Assembly: GCA_934503275.1 (NCBI GenBank)
Contig: CAKSVD010000001.1
Span: forward strand, 283,491-347,490
Direction of reading: 5' to 3'
Origin: an uncultured Faecalibacterium sp.
GTDB taxonomy: Bacteria; Bacillota; Clostridia; Oscillospirales; Ruminococcaceae
DNA length: 64,000 nucleotides
The notes beneath the pieces are model-generated. The model was not told the DNA's origin. It made no database searches and saw nothing but the letters and a program-made list of their open reading frames with translations. Below, piece by piece: positions 42,399 to 49,261 of this stretch; positions within the stretch are counted from its first letter, which is position 1, and the number at the start of each line of letters is the position of its first letter. A program made the translations under genes and the position numbers.

Positions 42399-44561
42399 AT
42401 GGACAAAGCACTTGCACATATTTCCGAGGACGGCACCCGCACCCAGACCGTCTACGAGCATCTTTCCGGCACAGCACGCCTTGCCGGAGCTTTTGCCGCC
42501 CCCTTTGGCGCAGCACAGGAGGCCGAATACGCCGCATGGCTGCACGACATTGGCAAATACAGCGCAGCTTTCCAGCAGCGGCTGGCGGGCGGTGCTGCAA
42601 CCGACCACTCGACCGCCGGTGCGCAGGAAGCGATGAAGGGCTGTGCGCCCCACGTTCAGGCGGCCTTTGCCGTAGCCGGGCACCACACCGGTCTGCCGGA
42701 CGGCGGCAACAAAAGGACAGCTGATTCTGCTGACAGTACCCTGTTCGGGCGACTGAAAAAGCCGGTGGAGCCTTACGATGGCTGGCGGGAGGTCACCCTG
42801 CCCCAGAGCGCCCCGCCGGATTGGGCAAACCGCGACCCGCTGGATTTTGCATTTTTCACCCGGATGCTCTACTCCTGTCTTGTGGACGCGGATTTTATCG
42901 ACACCGAAACTTTTATGAACGGTCAGGCCGCGCCCCGGGGCAACAGCACCGCGCTTTCTTCTCTGCTGGAAAAGGTGCGTGCCAAGGCGGCCGGCTATCT
43001 TGCGGCGCAGAGCACCTCGCCGGTAAGCATCCAGCGCAATACTGTGCTGCGCGCCTGTATGGAGAAAGGTGCCCACGGTGCTCCGGGACTGTATACCCTC
43101 ACCGTGCCCACCGGCGGCGGCAAGACCTTTGCCTCCCTTGCCTTTGCGCTGGAACAGGCGGCCGCGCAGGGCATGAAGCGAGTGGTCTATGTTATTCCGT
43201 ATATGTCCATCATCGACCAGACTGCCGCTGTTTTTGCAGATCTTCTGGGCGCAGAAAACGTACTGGCCGATTACTCCTGCGCAGACTACAAAAGTCTTGA
43301 GCAGGAAAAGCTGACCCCGGCGCAGTACCGCCAGCTGCTGGCCAGCGAAAACTGGAATGCACCTGTTGTGGTAACCACTGCGGTGCAGTTTTTTGAATCG
43401 CTGTACGCCAACCGCAGCAGCCGCTGCCGTAAACTGCACAACATTGCGGACAGCGTGATCATCTTTGACGAAGCGCAGACCCTGCCCACCAGTTATCTGC
43501 TGCCCTGCGTCAGCGCCATTGCACAGCTGGTGCGGCATTACCACGCCACCGCCGTGTTATGCACCGCCACCCAGCCCGCATTAGAGTCCTATTTCCGGCA
43601 GTTTGCGCCGGAGCTGTCCATACAGGAGATCGTACCGGACACTGCCGCACTGTACACTACCCTGCGCCGCACTACCCTTTGCGATGCCGGAGAGCTGACG
43701 CTGGAAGCGCTGACCGCACAGCTTTGCGCACTGCCGCAGGTGCTGTGCGTAGTGAACCGACGCAAAACGGCGCAGGAAGTGTATGCCGCTTTGCCCGCCG
43801 AGGGCAGCTACTGCCTGACCACCCTGCTATGCGCCGCAGACCGCCGCCGCCAGCTGGCAGAGATCCGGCAGCGGTTGCGGGAAGGGCTGCCCTGCCGGGT
43901 GGTTTCCACCTCGCTGATCGAAGCCGGTGTGGACGTGGATTTCCCCGCCGCATACCGGGAACAATGCGGGCTGGACTCTCTTTTGCAGACCGCCGGGCGC
44001 TGCAACCGGGAGGGACGCCGCAGCGCGGCAGAGAGCATGGTATATCGTTTTAAGCTGGAAGGCTGCAGCGTACCGCAGATGCTGCACCAGAATGTGCATG
44101 CCATGCAGTACGCAGCAGGCTGCACCGCAGCACTGGACAGTCCGGAGGCGGTCAGGGCTTATTTTAAGGAGCTGTATTTTGCGCGGGGCGAGGCCGCACT
44201 GGACACAAGCGGCATTCTGGATGCCCTGCGCAAGGGGATCTCGGGCTGCATTTTCCCGTTTGCGCAGGTGGCAGAGCAGTTCCATCTGATCGAAGCACCC
44301 ACCCGCACTGTTTACCTGCCCGTTGGCGAAGGCGCCGCACTTTGCGAGCAGCTGCGCAGCGGAACTGTGAGCCGCACACTTTACCGTAAGCTGGGCGCTT
44401 ACAGCGTAGCCTGTTATGCCCAGCAGTTTCAGGCACTGGATGCCGCCGGGGCGCTGGAGATGCTACCCAACGGCAGCGCCATTCTGACCGATAGCACCCT
44501 ATACGATGCTACGACCGGACTTTCCATGGACGTGGAGACCGGAAAAGGCCTGTTTTTCTGA
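42399..44561 (+). CDS. cas3: Type I-C CRISPR helicase-nuclease Cas3
   Basis: 720 residues. The N-terminal HD nuclease has H49-D50 (WLHDIGKYSAAF), H70 (TDHST), H95-H96 (GHHTG) and D163 (LVDADF). The SF2 helicase has Walker A VPTGGGKT (236-243), DEAQ (357-360) and the motif VI region QTAGRCNREGRR. Cas3 is recruited to Cascade-bound DNA, nicks and degrades it. All visible catalytic residues are intact, so interference appears possible. It is the first cas gene; a gap of about 100 bp with an inverted repeat separates it from cas5c. Confidence 0.96.
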   Translation: MDKALAHISEDGTRTQTVYEHLSGTARLAGAFAAPFGAAQEAEYAAWLHDIGKYSAAFQQRLAGGAATDHSTAGAQEAMKGCAPHVQAAFAVAGHHTGLPDGGNKRTADSADSTLFGRLKKPVEPYDGWREVTLPQSAPPDWANRDPLDFAFFTRMLYSCLVDADFIDTETFMNGQAAPRGNSTALSSLLEKVRAKAAGYLAAQSTSPVSIQRNTVLRACMEKGAHGAPGLYTLTVPTGGGKTFASLAFALEQAAAQGMKRVVYVIPYMSIIDQTAAVFADLLGAENVLADYSCADYKSLEQEKLTPAQYRQLLASENWNAPVVVTTAVQFFESLYANRSSRCRKLHNIADSVIIFDEAQTLPTSYLLPCVSAIAQLVRHYHATAVLCTATQPALESYFRQFAPELSIQEIVPDTAALYTTLRRTTLCDAGELTLEALTAQLCALPQVLCVVNRRKTAQEVYAALPAEGSYCLTTLLCAADRRRQLAEIRQRLREGLPCRVVSTSLIEAGVDVDFPAAYREQCGLDSLLQTAGRCNREGRRSAAESMVYRFKLEGCSVPQMLHQNVHAMQYAAGCTAALDSPEAVRAYFKELYFARGEAALDTSGILDALRKGISGCIFPFAQVAEQFHLIEAPTRTVYLPVGEGAALCEQLRSGTVSRTLYRKLGAYSVACYAQQFQALDAAGALEMLPNGSAILTDSTLYDATTGLSMDVETGKGLFF

Positions 44562-44577: not shown

Positions 44578-44665
44578 TGGCAAAGAAAATACGCAAAAGT
44601 CCTTTTTATAACACTTTAGATGCTGTATTATAAGTATAAATCAAATTTGAAAGGAGGTGGTGTTC

Positions 44666-45316
44666 ATGTCCATGCTGATCGAGGTCTGGGGCGACTACGC
44701 CTGCTTTTCAAGACCGGAGATGAAAACCGAGCGTGTATCCTATGACATCATGACGCCCTCGGCGGCGCGCGGGCTGGTGGAGGCCATCTACTGGCACCCG
44801 GGCATGAAGTACCATATCGACCGCATCTATCTGCTCAAGCCGGTGCAGTTTGCCAGTATCCGGCGCAACGAGGTCAAGGCTACCCTGCTGTCCTCGGCGG
44901 TGCTCAGTGCAGCCAAGGGCGGCGAGGTGCCCATGCTGTGCACGGCAGAGAATATCCAGCAGCGGGCAGCACTGGTGCTGCAGGATGTGCATTACGTTAT
45001 CGAATGCCATTTTACTATGACCGAAAAAGCCGCACCCGGCGATAACCCGGGCAAATTTCAGGATATCCTGCGGCGGCGGCTGAATAAGGGGCAGTGCTAT
45101 CACCAGCCCTGCTTTGGCTGCCGGGAGTTTCCGGCAAACTTCCGGGAATGGCACGGCAGAGCCGAGGAGATCCCCGCACTGCCGCTCACGCAGGATCTGG
45201 GCTTTATGCTGTATGATCTGGACTACTCCGACCCGGAAAATATCCGCTCCCAGTTCTTCCGGGCAAAGCTGGAAAACGGCGTGCTGGACTGCCGGGATGT
45301 GGAGGTGTTCACATGA
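44666..45316 (+). CDS. cas5c: Type I-C Cas5c (Cas5d), crRNA-processing subunit
   Basis: 216 residues with the RAMP fold start (LIEVWGDYACFSRPEMKTERVSYD) and the family motif KGQCYHQPCFGCREFPANF, containing K141 and H146 near the catalytic region used by Cas5c proteins to cleave repeats, since type I-C lacks Cas6. The ATG at 44666 has AAAGGAGG at good spacing; a GTG three codons earlier is less likely. Its stop overlaps cas8c (ATGA). Confidence 0.95.
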   Translation: MSMLIEVWGDYACFSRPEMKTERVSYDIMTPSAARGLVEAIYWHPGMKYHIDRIYLLKPVQFASIRRNEVKATLLSSAVLSAAKGGEVPMLCTAENIQQRAALVLQDVHYVIECHFTMTEKAAPGDNPGKFQDILRRRLNKGQCYHQPCFGCREFPANFREWHGRAEEIPALPLTQDLGFMLYDLDYSDPENIRSQFFRAKLENGVLDCRDVEVFT

Positions 45317-47079
45317 TCTTACAGGCACTTACTGCCTATTACGAGAAGCTTGTCCGGCATGGCAGGCTTTCTGCCCCCGGCTGGGACGACAGCTTTAAGG
45401 TGAGCTATGAGTTGCGGTTGAACGATGCCGGGCAGCTGGTCTCCGTGCTCGACCTGCGCGCAGAAATGAAGATGGGCAAAAAGACAGTCCTTGCCCCGCG
45501 TGCAATGCGCGTACCGGCGCATGAAAAGCGTTCCTCCGGCATTGCAGCCAACTTTTTGTGCGATAACTCCACCTATCTGCTGGGCGCAGACGAAAAAGGC
45601 AAGCCGGAGCGCTCTACGGATTGCTTCAAGGCCTGTGCCAAATTGCATCACGCCATTCTGGATGGCGTAGACAGCCCCGCAGCCCGGGCGCTCCTTGCTT
45701 ATTTTGACAGCTGGGATCCGGCGCAGGCTGCCACGCATCCCCTATTGGCTGAGCAGTGGAAGGAGATCACCGGCAACGCCAACCTGATCTTTGGCTACGA
45801 AGCTGCCGACCACAGTCACAGCTTTGTCAACGACGACCTCGCCATTCAGAACGCATGGCAGGCGCACTACAACGACCGCTCTGCCGATTCGGACATGGGG
45901 CAATGCCTGATTACCGGAAAATATGCCCCCATCGAGCGCACCCATCCGAATATCAGCGGTGTGCCCGGGGCGCAAAGCTCCGGCGCAGCACTGGTATCCT
46001 TCAACGCACCGGCCTTCTGCTCCTACGGCCACGAGCAGGGCGATAACGCCCCTGTCAGCAAGTACGCCGCCTTTGCCTATACCACTGCACTGAATTATCT
46101 CTTGGCTGACCGTAAAAATCATTGTCGCATTCTAGGTAGTGGCAGTAGTTCCACCGCCATGGTCTTCTGGGCCGAAAATGCAGAACCAGCCTATTCCGAT
46201 GCTTTTTCTATGTTTTTTTCCAGTGACTTGAGCGGCGAACTCGCTGCAATAATGAAAAAATTAGCGCTTGGACAATATGTACATTTTAACGGTATCGAGT
46301 TACAGCCCGATGAGCATTTCTGTATTCTGGGTCTTTCACCAAACGCAGCACGACTATCTGTTCGTTTTTTCATGCGGGATACCTTTGGAGCATTTGCCAA
46401 GAATCTCCAGCGTTTTTTAGATGAGACTGCAATCGCCCGACCAGACCTCGACATACGCGAATATCTATCTGTCTGGTCTGTTGCTCTGACTACGGTACGC
46501 ACCGTCAAAGGCAGTACGCCGCCTGACCCGTCCCCGCAGCTGGCAGGCGACCTGCTGCGCGCCGTGCTGACCGGCGGGCGTTACCCCGCTACTCTGCTGA
46601 ACGGAGTGACCCTGCGCATCCGTGCCGAGCAGAATGTGACCCGCAGCCGTGCTGCTGTGATCAAAGCGTATTACCTGCGTAATTACCCTACCGAACTGAA
46701 CAAGGAGGTCTATACTGTGAGCCTGAACGAAACTACCAATGTTCCCTATCTTCTGGGGCGGCTGTTCTCGGTGCTGGAGGCTGTGCAAAAAGCTGCCAAC
46801 CCCGGCATCAACACCACCATCAAGGACCGGTATTTCAACGCCGCCTGCGCCACGCCGGTCATGGCCTTCCCCACCCTGCTGCGGCTGAGCCAGAAGCATC
46901 TGCGCAAGCTGAACGACGGCCTTGCCACCTACTACGATAATCAGATCACCGAACTGATGGCGCAGCTGCCGGAAAGCGGTTTCCCCGCTCGGCTCAGCCT
47001 GCCGGATCAGGGCAAATTTGCCATCGGTTACTACCACCAGACCCAGAAACGCTTTGCCAAAAAGAACGAGGAGGAATAA
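45313..47079 (+). CDS. cas8c: Type I-C Cascade large subunit Cas8c (Csd1), mosaic composition
   Basis: 588 residues, usual for Cas8c/Csd1. Family features include ANFLCDNSTYLLG near residue 80, CLITGKYAPIERTHPNI and the central LGLSPNAARLSVRFF box. Cas8c recognises the PAM and recruits Cas3. Reading frame is intact. Odd: between about 46090 and 46500 (residues about 260-396) base composition drops sharply; by hand 133 of the 300 bases 46201-46500 are G or C, against well over 60% on either side, with different codon choice. This suggests a recombined segment. Confidence 0.95.
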   Translation: MILQALTAYYEKLVRHGRLSAPGWDDSFKVSYELRLNDAGQLVSVLDLRAEMKMGKKTVLAPRAMRVPAHEKRSSGIAANFLCDNSTYLLGADEKGKPERSTDCFKACAKLHHAILDGVDSPAARALLAYFDSWDPAQAATHPLLAEQWKEITGNANLIFGYEAADHSHSFVNDDLAIQNAWQAHYNDRSADSDMGQCLITGKYAPIERTHPNISGVPGAQSSGAALVSFNAPAFCSYGHEQGDNAPVSKYAAFAYTTALNYLLADRKNHCRILGSGSSSTAMVFWAENAEPAYSDAFSMFFSSDLSGELAAIMKKLALGQYVHFNGIELQPDEHFCILGLSPNAARLSVRFFMRDTFGAFAKNLQRFLDETAIARPDLDIREYLSVWSVALTTVRTVKGSTPPDPSPQLAGDLLRAVLTGGRYPATLLNGVTLRIRAEQNVTRSRAAVIKAYYLRNYPTELNKEVYTVSLNETTNVPYLLGRLFSVLEAVQKAANPGINTTIKDRYFNAACATPVMAFPTLLRLSQKHLRKLNDGLATYYDNQITELMAQLPESGFPARLSLPDQGKFAIGYYHQTQKRFAKKNEEE

Positions 47080-47082
47080 AAA

Positions 47083-47982
47083 ATGTCTGCACCTATCAAA
47101 AACCGCTACGATTTTGTTATTCTGTTCGATGTAGAGAACGGCAACCCCAACGGTGACCCCGATGCCGGCAATATGCCCCGCATCGATCCTGAGACCGGCT
47201 ATGGGCTGGTGACCGATGTCTGCCTGAAGCGCAAAATCCGCAACTATGTGGAGACGCTGAAGGAGGACGCCCCCGATGCCGATAATTACCGCATCTATGT
47301 CAAGGAGGGCGTGCCCCTGAACCGCAGCGATGCCGAGGCGCTGGAGCATAACGGTCTGACCCCCAAGGACGACCTGAAAAAGGCCAAGAAAAGCGACCCG
47401 GAGATCGACCGCAAGCTGCGGGATTATATGTGCGAACATTTCTACGATATCCGCACCTTCGGTGCCGTGATGACCACCTTTGTCAAGGGTGCGCTGAACT
47501 GCGGCCAGGTGCGCGGGCCGGTGCAGCTGAGCTTTGCCCGCTCTGTTGACCCTATCGTGCCGCAAGAGGTGACCATTACCCGCGTAGCCATCACCACCGA
47601 GGCAGACGCTGAAAAGAAGAACAGTGAAATGGGCAACAAGCATATCGTACCCTACGGCCTGTACCGTGCCGAGGGTTACGTTTCTGCCAATCTTGCCCGC
47701 AAGACCACCGGCTTCTCGGATGAAGATCTGCAGCTGCTGTGGCAGGCCATCCTGAATATGTTCGAGAACGACCATAGTGCTGCACGCGGCAAGATGGCCG
47801 TGCGAGAACTGATCGTGTTCAAGCACGATTCCGAACTGGGCAATGCGCCCGCCTACAAGCTGTTTGATGCCGTTACCGTGGCGCACAAGGCCGAGGTGGT
47901 CGCGCCCCGCAGCTATCAGGACTACACCGTTACGGTGTCCAACACCCTGCCGGAGGGTGTGCACTGCGAGAGGTTCCACTGA
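47083..47982 (+). CDS. cas7c: Type I-C Cascade backbone Cas7c (Csd2), altered C-terminus
   Basis: 299 residues. The N-terminus NRYDFVILFDVENGNPNGDPDAGNMPR is diagnostic of Csd2 and the whole RAMP core is present. Cas7 subunits coat the spacer part of the crRNA. The frame ends GVHCERFH and stops inside sequence that, in another frame, encodes the end of Cas2. The last few residues are therefore probably junction-derived, although the loss at the C-terminus should be small. Normally cas4, cas1 and cas2 would follow. Confidence 0.95.
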   Translation: MSAPIKNRYDFVILFDVENGNPNGDPDAGNMPRIDPETGYGLVTDVCLKRKIRNYVETLKEDAPDADNYRIYVKEGVPLNRSDAEALEHNGLTPKDDLKKAKKSDPEIDRKLRDYMCEHFYDIRTFGAVMTTFVKGALNCGQVRGPVQLSFARSVDPIVPQEVTITRVAITTEADAEKKNSEMGNKHIVPYGLYRAEGYVSANLARKTTGFSDEDLQLLWQAILNMFENDHSAARGKMAVRELIVFKHDSELGNAPAYKLFDAVTVAHKAEVVAPRSYQDYTVTVSNTLPEGVHCERFH

Positions 47983-48103
47983 CCTGATCGACCCCGTCTC
48001 AGACAGTCTGCGGTTCTACCAACTGGGCAACAACTACCAGACCAAGGTCGAACACGTTGGACTACACCCGGAGTTTGCACAGAACAGCGTGCTGATCTTT
48101 TGA
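47978..48103 (+). pseudogene. cas2: cas2 remnant: C-terminal part only
   Basis: In a frame different from cas7, codons give LIDPVSDSLRFYQLGNNY, then QTKVEHVGLHPEF and SVLIF before a stop at 48101-48103. DSLRFYxLGNNYxxKVEHxG is the signature of the C-terminal half of type I-C Cas2. About 41 codons remain of the usual roughly 96. There is no start codon or ribosome site. The remnant begins where cas7 ends, so a deletion has removed cas4, cas1 and the first half of cas2. Confidence 0.88.
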
Positions 48104-48110
48104 TGTCCGG

Positions 48111-48159
48111 CCAGTGCGAACAGACAGTGCACATGGTTTTCCGGGATGCTTCGCACTGG
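48111..48159 (+). repeat. Inverted repeat in the CRISPR leader region
   Basis: CCAGTGCGAA (48111-48120) and TTCGCACTGG (48150-48159) are perfect 10-base arms with a 29-base loop that contains a GTGCAC palindrome. It lies between the cas2 remnant and the array promoter, in the place of a type I-C leader element. Confidence 0.7.
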
Positions 48160-48219
48160 AATAACAGTCGACTGTGCAAGTAGCGGTGTAATTTTACGGC
48201 TTGCTTTACAGAGACCTCT

Positions 48220-48247
48220 TTGCAATTTGTGCAGGGAGGTGTATAAT
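48220..48247 (+). promoter_or_regulatory. CRISPR array leader promoter
   Basis: -35 TTGCAA (48220-48225) and -10 TATAAT (48242-48247), 16 bases apart, ending 36 bases before the first repeat and pointing into the array. A CAGAG/CTCTG stem with a T-run follows at 48258-48280 but should not block transcription completely. Confidence 0.7.
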
Positions 48248-48283
48248 GAGACAAAAGCAGAGTATTTTCTCTCTGTTTTTGCT

Positions 48284-49261
48284 GTCGCCCTCCTCACGGA
48301 GGGCGTGGATAGAAATAACGGTTATCCGTATCAGTTTGACCCGAAAACTGGTTGCCCTCCTCGTGGAGGGCGTGGATAGAAATGGGGAAACATGGGGCAT
48401 CGAAAAGGGCATCGTCAGTCGCCCTCCTCACGGAGGGCGTGGATAGAAATAGCATAGCGGTTGCCCGGCGGATCACGTTGCGGGTCGCCCTCCTCACGGA
48501 GGGCGTGGATAGAAATCTGATGAAGAAGAAGAACTGGAAGCCCGTTACCTGGTCGCCCTCCTCGCGGAGGGCGTGGATAGAAATATCGTCCAGATGGGCA
48601 TCGATATACTTTACCTCCGGTCGCCCTCCTCACGGAGGGCGTGGATAGAAATTTGCTGTGGCCCACGAGCATCTTCAACTGCCCCTGTCGCCCTCCTCGC
48701 GGAGGGCGTGGATAGAAATCTTATGGGGCGCACCGTTGACCCCGCTGTACAGCGTCGCCCTCCTCGCAGAGGGCGTGGATAGAAATAAGCAGTTTATCCC
48801 GTCCCCGACCGATGATGACGGTCGCCCTCCTCGCGGAGGGTGTGGATAGAAATAAAAACCGCTCAGCAAACTCATAGCCGATGCGGTTGTCGTCCTCCTC
48901 GCGGAGGACGTGGGTAGAAATCAGTACGGCCAGTAGGCGCCCTCACCGCTAACCTGCGTCGCCCTCCTCGCGGAGGGTGCGGATAGAAATAGGGCTGCGG
49001 TGTAGTCTGAGAACGACTGCCCGCGTCGCCCTCCTCGTGGAGGGCGTGGATAGAAATCAGATAAAGCCGAAGTTCTTCCGGCTCCTGCCCTGTCTCCCTC
49101 CTCACGGAGGGCGTGGATAGAAATGCTCTTGGTGAAAGCCATATCCCAGGACTGGATAAGGTCGCCCTCCTCACGGAGGGCGTGGATAGAAATGATGCAG
49201 TGTGCTACATTGACATCGACAGCAGCGCGTCGCCCTCCTCGCGGAGGGTGCGGATAGAAAT
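48284..49261 (+). CRISPR. Type I-C CRISPR array, 15 repeats and 14 spacers
   Basis: Repeats are 33 bases, start GTCGCCCTCC, have a four-base loop (TCAC, TCGC or TCGT), then GGAGGGCGTGG and end ATAGAAAT; an 8-bp stem closes the loop. Repeat starts: 48284, 48351, 48418, 48484, 48552, 48620, 48687, 48754, 48821, 48889, 48958, 49025, 49092, 49161, 49229. Spacers are 33-36 bases. Only six repeats equal the first one exactly; variants are concentrated in the distal half. The GTGGATNGAAAT end and adjacent cas genes assign it to type I-C. Leader is at the cas side. Confidence 0.98.

Follow-up and report, generated by a model that had tools for sequence, protein, structure and literature searches.

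Type I CRISPR-Cas loci that lack the genes for spacer acquisition have been counted before. In the part of one survey drawn on here, 263 of 2001 type I loci are without cas1 and cas2, with interference presumed to be kept, and in 51 cases a type I locus with an array resides in a genome devoid of both genes (PMC5294841). Type IV and Tn7-associated systems without adaptation modules are likewise described in the portion of PMC6452270 used here.

The locus considered here lies in a 64-kb stretch of DNA, hereafter the window, from a relative of Faecalibacterium. The best explanation, to which a probability of about 85% is given, is that a single deletion of 1,881 bp has turned a complete type I-C CRISPR-Cas locus into an interference-only system with a frozen memory. 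The closest comparison genome, G001, has 22% of sampled 31-mers in common with the window, and the best named relative of cas7 is that of F. longum, with 85% protein identity.

The effector module

The effector genes of subtype I-C stand in the order cas3, cas5c, cas8c, cas7c, an order that also holds in the relatives compared here. The window carries all four in this order, full length and on the + strand, so that profiles and gene order together identify a subtype I-C effector module:

42399..44561, + strand: cas3 (HD nuclease and helicase), 720 aa; TIGR01587 and TIGR01596 above cut-off
44657..45316, + strand: cas5c, 219 aa, start codon uncertain; TIGR01876, 165.6 bits
45313..47079, + strand: cas8c/csd1, 588 aa; TIGR01863 over positions 1-587 of 588, PF09709 at 601.5 bits
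47083..47982, + strand: cas7c/csd2, 299 aa, ending at the deletion junction (TGA stop at 47982); TIGR02589, 352.8 bits, and 7kha_B, E 1e-107

The original prediction had taken these four proteins to be complete, and the models bear this out. Subtype models span Cas5c, Cas8c and Cas7c almost whole, while Cas3 is covered by models of its HD and helicase domains. Solved I-C proteins match Cas5c and Cas7c; residues 7-212 of Cas5c align to 3kg4 and residues 7-210 to 7kha. None of the four genes contains an internal stop codon, and dN/dS on the window lineage, which includes time both before and after the deletion, is low (cas7 0.027, cas5 0.043, cas3 0.126, cas8 0.156).

Two local differences among the loci compared are recorded in passing. 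The middle of cas8c (window 46112-46527) is strongly divergent in G006, where 186 of 398 sites are unique, while the window resembles G023, as after the swap of a cas8c segment. In the gap between cas3 and cas5 (window 44637-44648), G023 has about 280 additional bases that are absent from the window and G006.

A single deletion and a cas2 stump

The DNA from cas7 to the leader was searched in 61 genomes around G001 and found a match in 12. Two relatives from the same genus, G023 and G006, have complete type I-C loci that share with the window the gene order, an alignment extending upstream of cas3, and a homologous leader and repeat. Unlike the window, they possess cas4-cas1-cas2 and have uniform repeats at the leader end. 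Their cas7 is 96% identical to that of the window, and in both of them the cas7 part and the cas2-to-leader part are separated by 1,881 bp:

47982..47983, no strand: deletion junction, with 1,881 bp of the relatives missing (cas4, cas1 and cas2 codons 1-57); comparison with G023 and G006
47983..48103, + strand: cas2 stump, codons 58-96 and stop; tblastn, alignment and sequence

The cas7 stop codon and the cas4 start codon overlap by one base, the last of the one and the first of the other. The left breakpoint lies at this base, and the missing span runs from base 2 of the cas4 start codon to codon 57 of cas2. A single deletion of about 2 kb from the cas7 end to mid cas2 had been proposed, with alignment to complete related loci as the means of finding its breakpoints; that alignment gives exactly 1,881 bp and no microhomology, the two sides of the exact join having not a single base in common. 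On both sides CTGA tetramers stand close to the join, and their use as microhomology would require the loss of another 4 nt.

The stump is recognizable by comparison with a relative's Cas2, whose residues 56-96 match the window by tblastn at 90% over 41 aa (E 7e-23). By profile libraries alone it is barely visible, with Pfam Cas2 at E 0.21 and no call from NCBIfam. The remnant is indeed the C-terminal part of Cas2 as predicted, though ‘half’ was slightly generous for 39 of 96 codons (41%). A mechanical open reading frame overlaps it (47843-48103), and no ATG, GTG or TTG was read near the beginning of the stump in its frame. Within the 39 retained codons three amino acid changes are found only in the window and the remaining window-only changes are silent; hence the stump is not clearly decayed. 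Together with the leader it aligns over 301 columns at 87% identity to G023 and 86% to G006.

With the Cas4, Cas1 and Cas2 of one relative as queries, the 64 kb yield nothing outside the stump, and so no second Cas2, the next best Cas1 match having an E of 0.12. A self-sufficient type I-C locus has intact cas4, cas1 and cas2, of which the window retains only cas2 codons 58-96; it has instead the makeup of an adaptation-deficient type I locus, without cas1 and cas2 and with an array.

The 20-mer across the junction has no match among the GTDB 220 representatives, so the allele is not datable by strain comparison, and the plasmid collection gave no match. The absence from GTDB 220 would also be expected of an assembly misjoin that had dropped the 1,881 bp. 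Misjoins, however, usually fall at repeats, and there is no homology at the exact join. The leader behind it has 17 changes found only in the window, while the relatives have 6 each, and the repeat decay described below fits a real loss. An assembly error is therefore hardly to be expected here.

Leader, promoter and array

As foreseen, leader and array follow the stump directly, with a 180-nt leader starting at 48104 and the array at 48284:

48104..48283, + strand: leader, homologous to leaders of complete loci; alignment with G023 and G006
48219..48247, + strand: sigma-70-like array promoter, TTGCAA, 16 nt, TATAAT; pattern scan and alignment
48284..49261, + strand: CRISPR array, 15 repeats of 33 nt and 14 spacers of 33-36 nt, the repeats varying all the way to the leader end

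The promoter scan returned two overlapping matches against 0.8 expected, and both hexamers are kept in G023 and G006. The 33-nt repeat with its hairpin, as expected of a I-C module, is like that of complete relatives and is of the same type as that of G006, from which the 15 repeats differ by 19 changes, starting with the first repeat. Two stem pairs are broken by these changes, against an average of 5.5 under random placement (P 0.024); a broken pair is present in 2 of the 15 repeats, and in one repeat both sides of a pair have changed together. CpG positions account for 14 of the 19 changes, most of them within the CGCG loop, which would suit fast-mutating or methylated sites. Given this, and since common descent may underlie some of the changes, the hairpin test carries little weight, and a CpG mutation bias may explain much of the hairpin retention. 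Degenerate repeats elsewhere, a sign of a CreTA-like guard, are absent from the window at up to 11 mismatches.

The array bears on whether the effector, too, is dead or dying and the locus a mere relic. Loss of adaptation can be the first step of decay, stem pairs are broken in the two repeats mentioned, and the 15 repeats fall short of the at least 59 of G006 and the 35 of G023. Against this, the four effector genes remain open and evolve at low dN/dS on the window lineage, and the array promoter is kept, which makes a relic improbable. Indirect support for retained crRNA processing and interference comes from the intact effector genes, the low dN/dS, the promoter, the largely kept hairpins, and spacers that match phages mostly beside TTC.

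Repeat decay at the leader end

Spacer addition copies the leader-proximal repeat, and the leader-end repeats of a working array are therefore alike. In the window, the first 10 repeats comprise 6 different sequences. Eight relatives (seven of the genus and one of the family) with arrays of at least 14 repeats in the stretch fetched have 11 to 59 identical repeats counted from the end nearer to cas7; in one of them, L029, the array is located between cas4 and cas1.

A wider survey combined 67 regions around cas8c from the same class, where Cas8c scores above cut-off in 66 of 393 genomes, with the best 80 of the 584 relatives of cas7 found among the GTDB 220 representatives. L030, which is the same locus as L039, was left out beforehand. 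The 156 loci and the window (157) include 121 with a downstream array, or 117 after removal of 4 duplicates; many are metagenome assemblies. For each locus only the array nearest cas7 was counted, over its first ten repeats and excluding the trailer repeat.

Among loci with at least 8 leader repeats, the mean differing fraction is 0.38 where cas1 is broken (5 loci) and 0.014 where it is intact (91 loci; Mann-Whitney p 1.2e-6, or p 2.7e-5 without the window). All 91 intact loci have at most 2 different sequences, whereas 4 of the 5 broken ones have 4 to 6 at the leader end. When arrays of less than 8 leader repeats are included as well, the comparison is of 7 broken with 110 intact loci (p 1.4e-5), with a top intact value of 0.4 in L060. 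Of 127 arrays, the three with the greatest heterogeneity belong to the window, L041 and L176, in each of which adaptation genes have been deleted. L153, in which the cas1 reading frame is disrupted, has a uniform array, perhaps because the mutation is recent or the sequence in error. Two loci with lesions, L087 and L096, have no array that passes the finder, that of L096 being short and strongly mutated; L186 and L175 lie at contig ends and may be limited by assembly. Second, distant arrays in loci with intact cas1 can vary as well, with 4 different repeats in 10 in L043 and 3 in 7 in L144.

A search of titles and abstracts for repeat decay after cas1 loss returned no paper on exactly that, which is not proof of absence, and the portion of PMC7056967 consulted contains nothing on it.

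The same heterogeneity would arise if repeat recombination had brought the old trailer end of an array to the leader, an explanation that is compatible with the deletion. In 12 of 86 intact arrays, some stretch of 10 reaches at least 4 different repeats, mostly near the far end, and the window array may thus be such an old tail; repeat decay would then say little on when cas1 was lost. The far ends of the closest complete loci offer little such material, however, as G006 has 18 identical repeats among the last 20 read and the 35 repeats of G023 are of only 3 kinds. An old trailer end is accordingly possible, though doubtful, and even so the array has gained no new uniform repeats since then. 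Whether the array drifted in place or is an old tail, no fresh repeats have been added, and the leader-end decay supports the original prediction that the locus acquires no new spacers by itself.

Acquisition might also continue with adaptation proteins encoded elsewhere in the genome. Such supply in trans is documented between other CRISPR types (PMC8092290, in the section used), and of the 263 type I loci that lack both acquisition genes, 36 have remote copies of cas1, cas2 or both according to the same part of PMC5294841. Within the genus, another, distant Cas1 exists in 3 of 31 genomes. None of these three has Cas8c, so that the two occur together in 0 of 31. Cas8c scores above cut-off in 8 of the 31, all of which, unlike the window, have a full-length type I-C cas1; in a ninth genome, G003 (77% complete), Cas8c is represented only by a fragment that scores below cut-off, and cas1 is absent. 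Given also that the 64-kb window holds no cas1 elsewhere, and that ongoing acquisition would be expected to erase the leader-end decay, acquisition in trans appears very unlikely.

Spacer targets

The motif 5′ of type I-C protospacers is TTC. All 14 spacers were searched in 50,697 phage records, of which 16 matched and 11 were inspected; 7 of the 11 contain a target at no more than 5 mismatches, and 4 do not (best 13 or more). Three records (H7, H13, H16) are apparently second records of others (H6, H12, H15), and two outside the inspected set (H1, H2) resemble CRISPR arrays. An exact-word scan of viral contigs covered 8 of the 14 spacers (1, 2, 3, 5, 6, 12, 13 and 14) and gave no match for spacers 1, 3, 5, 12, 13 and 14. 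Targets were obtained for four of the 14 spacers:

48384..48417, + strand: spacer 2; terminase large-subunit genes of Faecalibacterium phages Taranis and Pioen and 4 more phage contigs, 2-4 mismatches, TTC 5′ of each
48585..48619, + strand: spacer 5; reverse transcriptase gene of Faecalibacterium phage Epona, 34/35, TTC
48653..48686, + strand: spacer 6; IMG/VR viral contig, 33/34, TTC
48854..48888, + strand: spacer 9; two faecal phage scaffolds, 31/35 each, TTC

These amount to 11 target loci with 1 to 5 mismatches, and TTC stands directly 5′ at 10 of them, as expected of a I-C module, with TTT at one. No spacer recurs in the compared loci at E 0.01.

The TTT occurs in a contig related to the spacer-2 targets (L194 302-335, 5 mismatches), which could be an escape variant or simply a divergent relative. 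The Epona reverse transcriptase gene (L104 474-1628) adjoins a BPP-1-like tropism determinant and looks like part of a diversity-generating retroelement.

Other loci with lost adaptation genes

The locus of G261 (L041) resembles the window in that cas1 is gone, with none found in the G261 genome, and in its decayed leader-end repeats (6 different in 10). It differs in having arisen by an independent deletion, which fused the N-terminus of cas4 in frame to cas2 (L041 5605-6039).

Further lesions vary in form. In L176 (7150-7700) the start of cas4 is missing and its remnant is joined to mid cas1, pointing to several deletions, beside a heterogeneous array. In L175 (6490-7279), at a contig end of a metagenome assembly, just 3 bp separate the cas7 stop from the array, and there are neither adaptation genes nor a leader; the array has 4 different repeats in 10. 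The protein database contains short fusions of part of Cas4 to a C-terminal part of Cas2, namely P0042 (11 contigs) and P0116 (1 contig). Both halves of each match Cas4 and Cas2 of G006, which suggests recurrent deletions, and the fusions, known from proteins alone, would represent further losses of adaptation genes in Faecalibacterium-like loci. Another short protein, P0002 (5 contigs), joins another frame of cas2 to the Cas2 C-terminus, as after a small frameshift.

A proposed path from deletion to frozen memory

The sequence of events under the preferred reading, a single deletion leading to a frozen memory, can be outlined as follows. By comparison with the relatives, one deletion took cas4, cas1 and 59% of cas2 from a complete Faecalibacterium type I-C locus, sparing the effector operon, the leader and the promoter of the array. 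Once the Cas4-Cas1-Cas2 integrase was gone, the leader end would gain no further repeat-spacer units; the repeats there would no longer be freshly copied, and this would account for the point-mutation drift that is observed. The array is probably still transcribed, presumably from the leader promoter, with Cas5c cutting the transcript and Cascade and Cas3 using it for interference, to judge from the genes and signals retained. Attack would thereby be confined to phages already recorded.

Tentatively, interference-only type I-C systems may recur in gut Clostridia, and in Faecalibacterium above all, as a stage that selection maintains. This proposal draws on independent deletions (the window, the Cas4::Cas2 fusions P0042 and P0116, G261, L176 and L175) and on an effector under selection, and it would make mutations in leader-end repeats a clock of the time since the last acquisition.

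With its exact breakpoints and complete sister loci, the window offers a clean natural knockout of CRISPR adaptation, which lets one ask how long a fixed memory of phages pays. The decay signature, present here and in most of the broken-cas1 loci examined and not in intact ones, provides a test from sequence of whether an array is still being updated.

Comparison with known systems

Like the type I loci without cas1 and cas2 in PMC5294841, as far as the part considered describes them, the window has effector genes and an array and is devoid of acquisition genes. That part of the survey counts loci and does not deal with breakpoints or repeat decay, both of which are given here. The Tn7-associated type I and the type IV systems, in the portion of PMC6452270 considered, share with the window the absence of an adaptation module. 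Tn7-associated systems are also without Cas3, whereas the window locus keeps Cas3 and occupies the place of complete loci; type IV systems, unlike the window locus, are typically plasmid-borne with other genes (PMC6452270, same portion). Adaptation-less type I loci are thus already known, and the present additions are a deletion defined to the base beside intact sister loci, other lesions of independent origin, and a signature of repeat decay.
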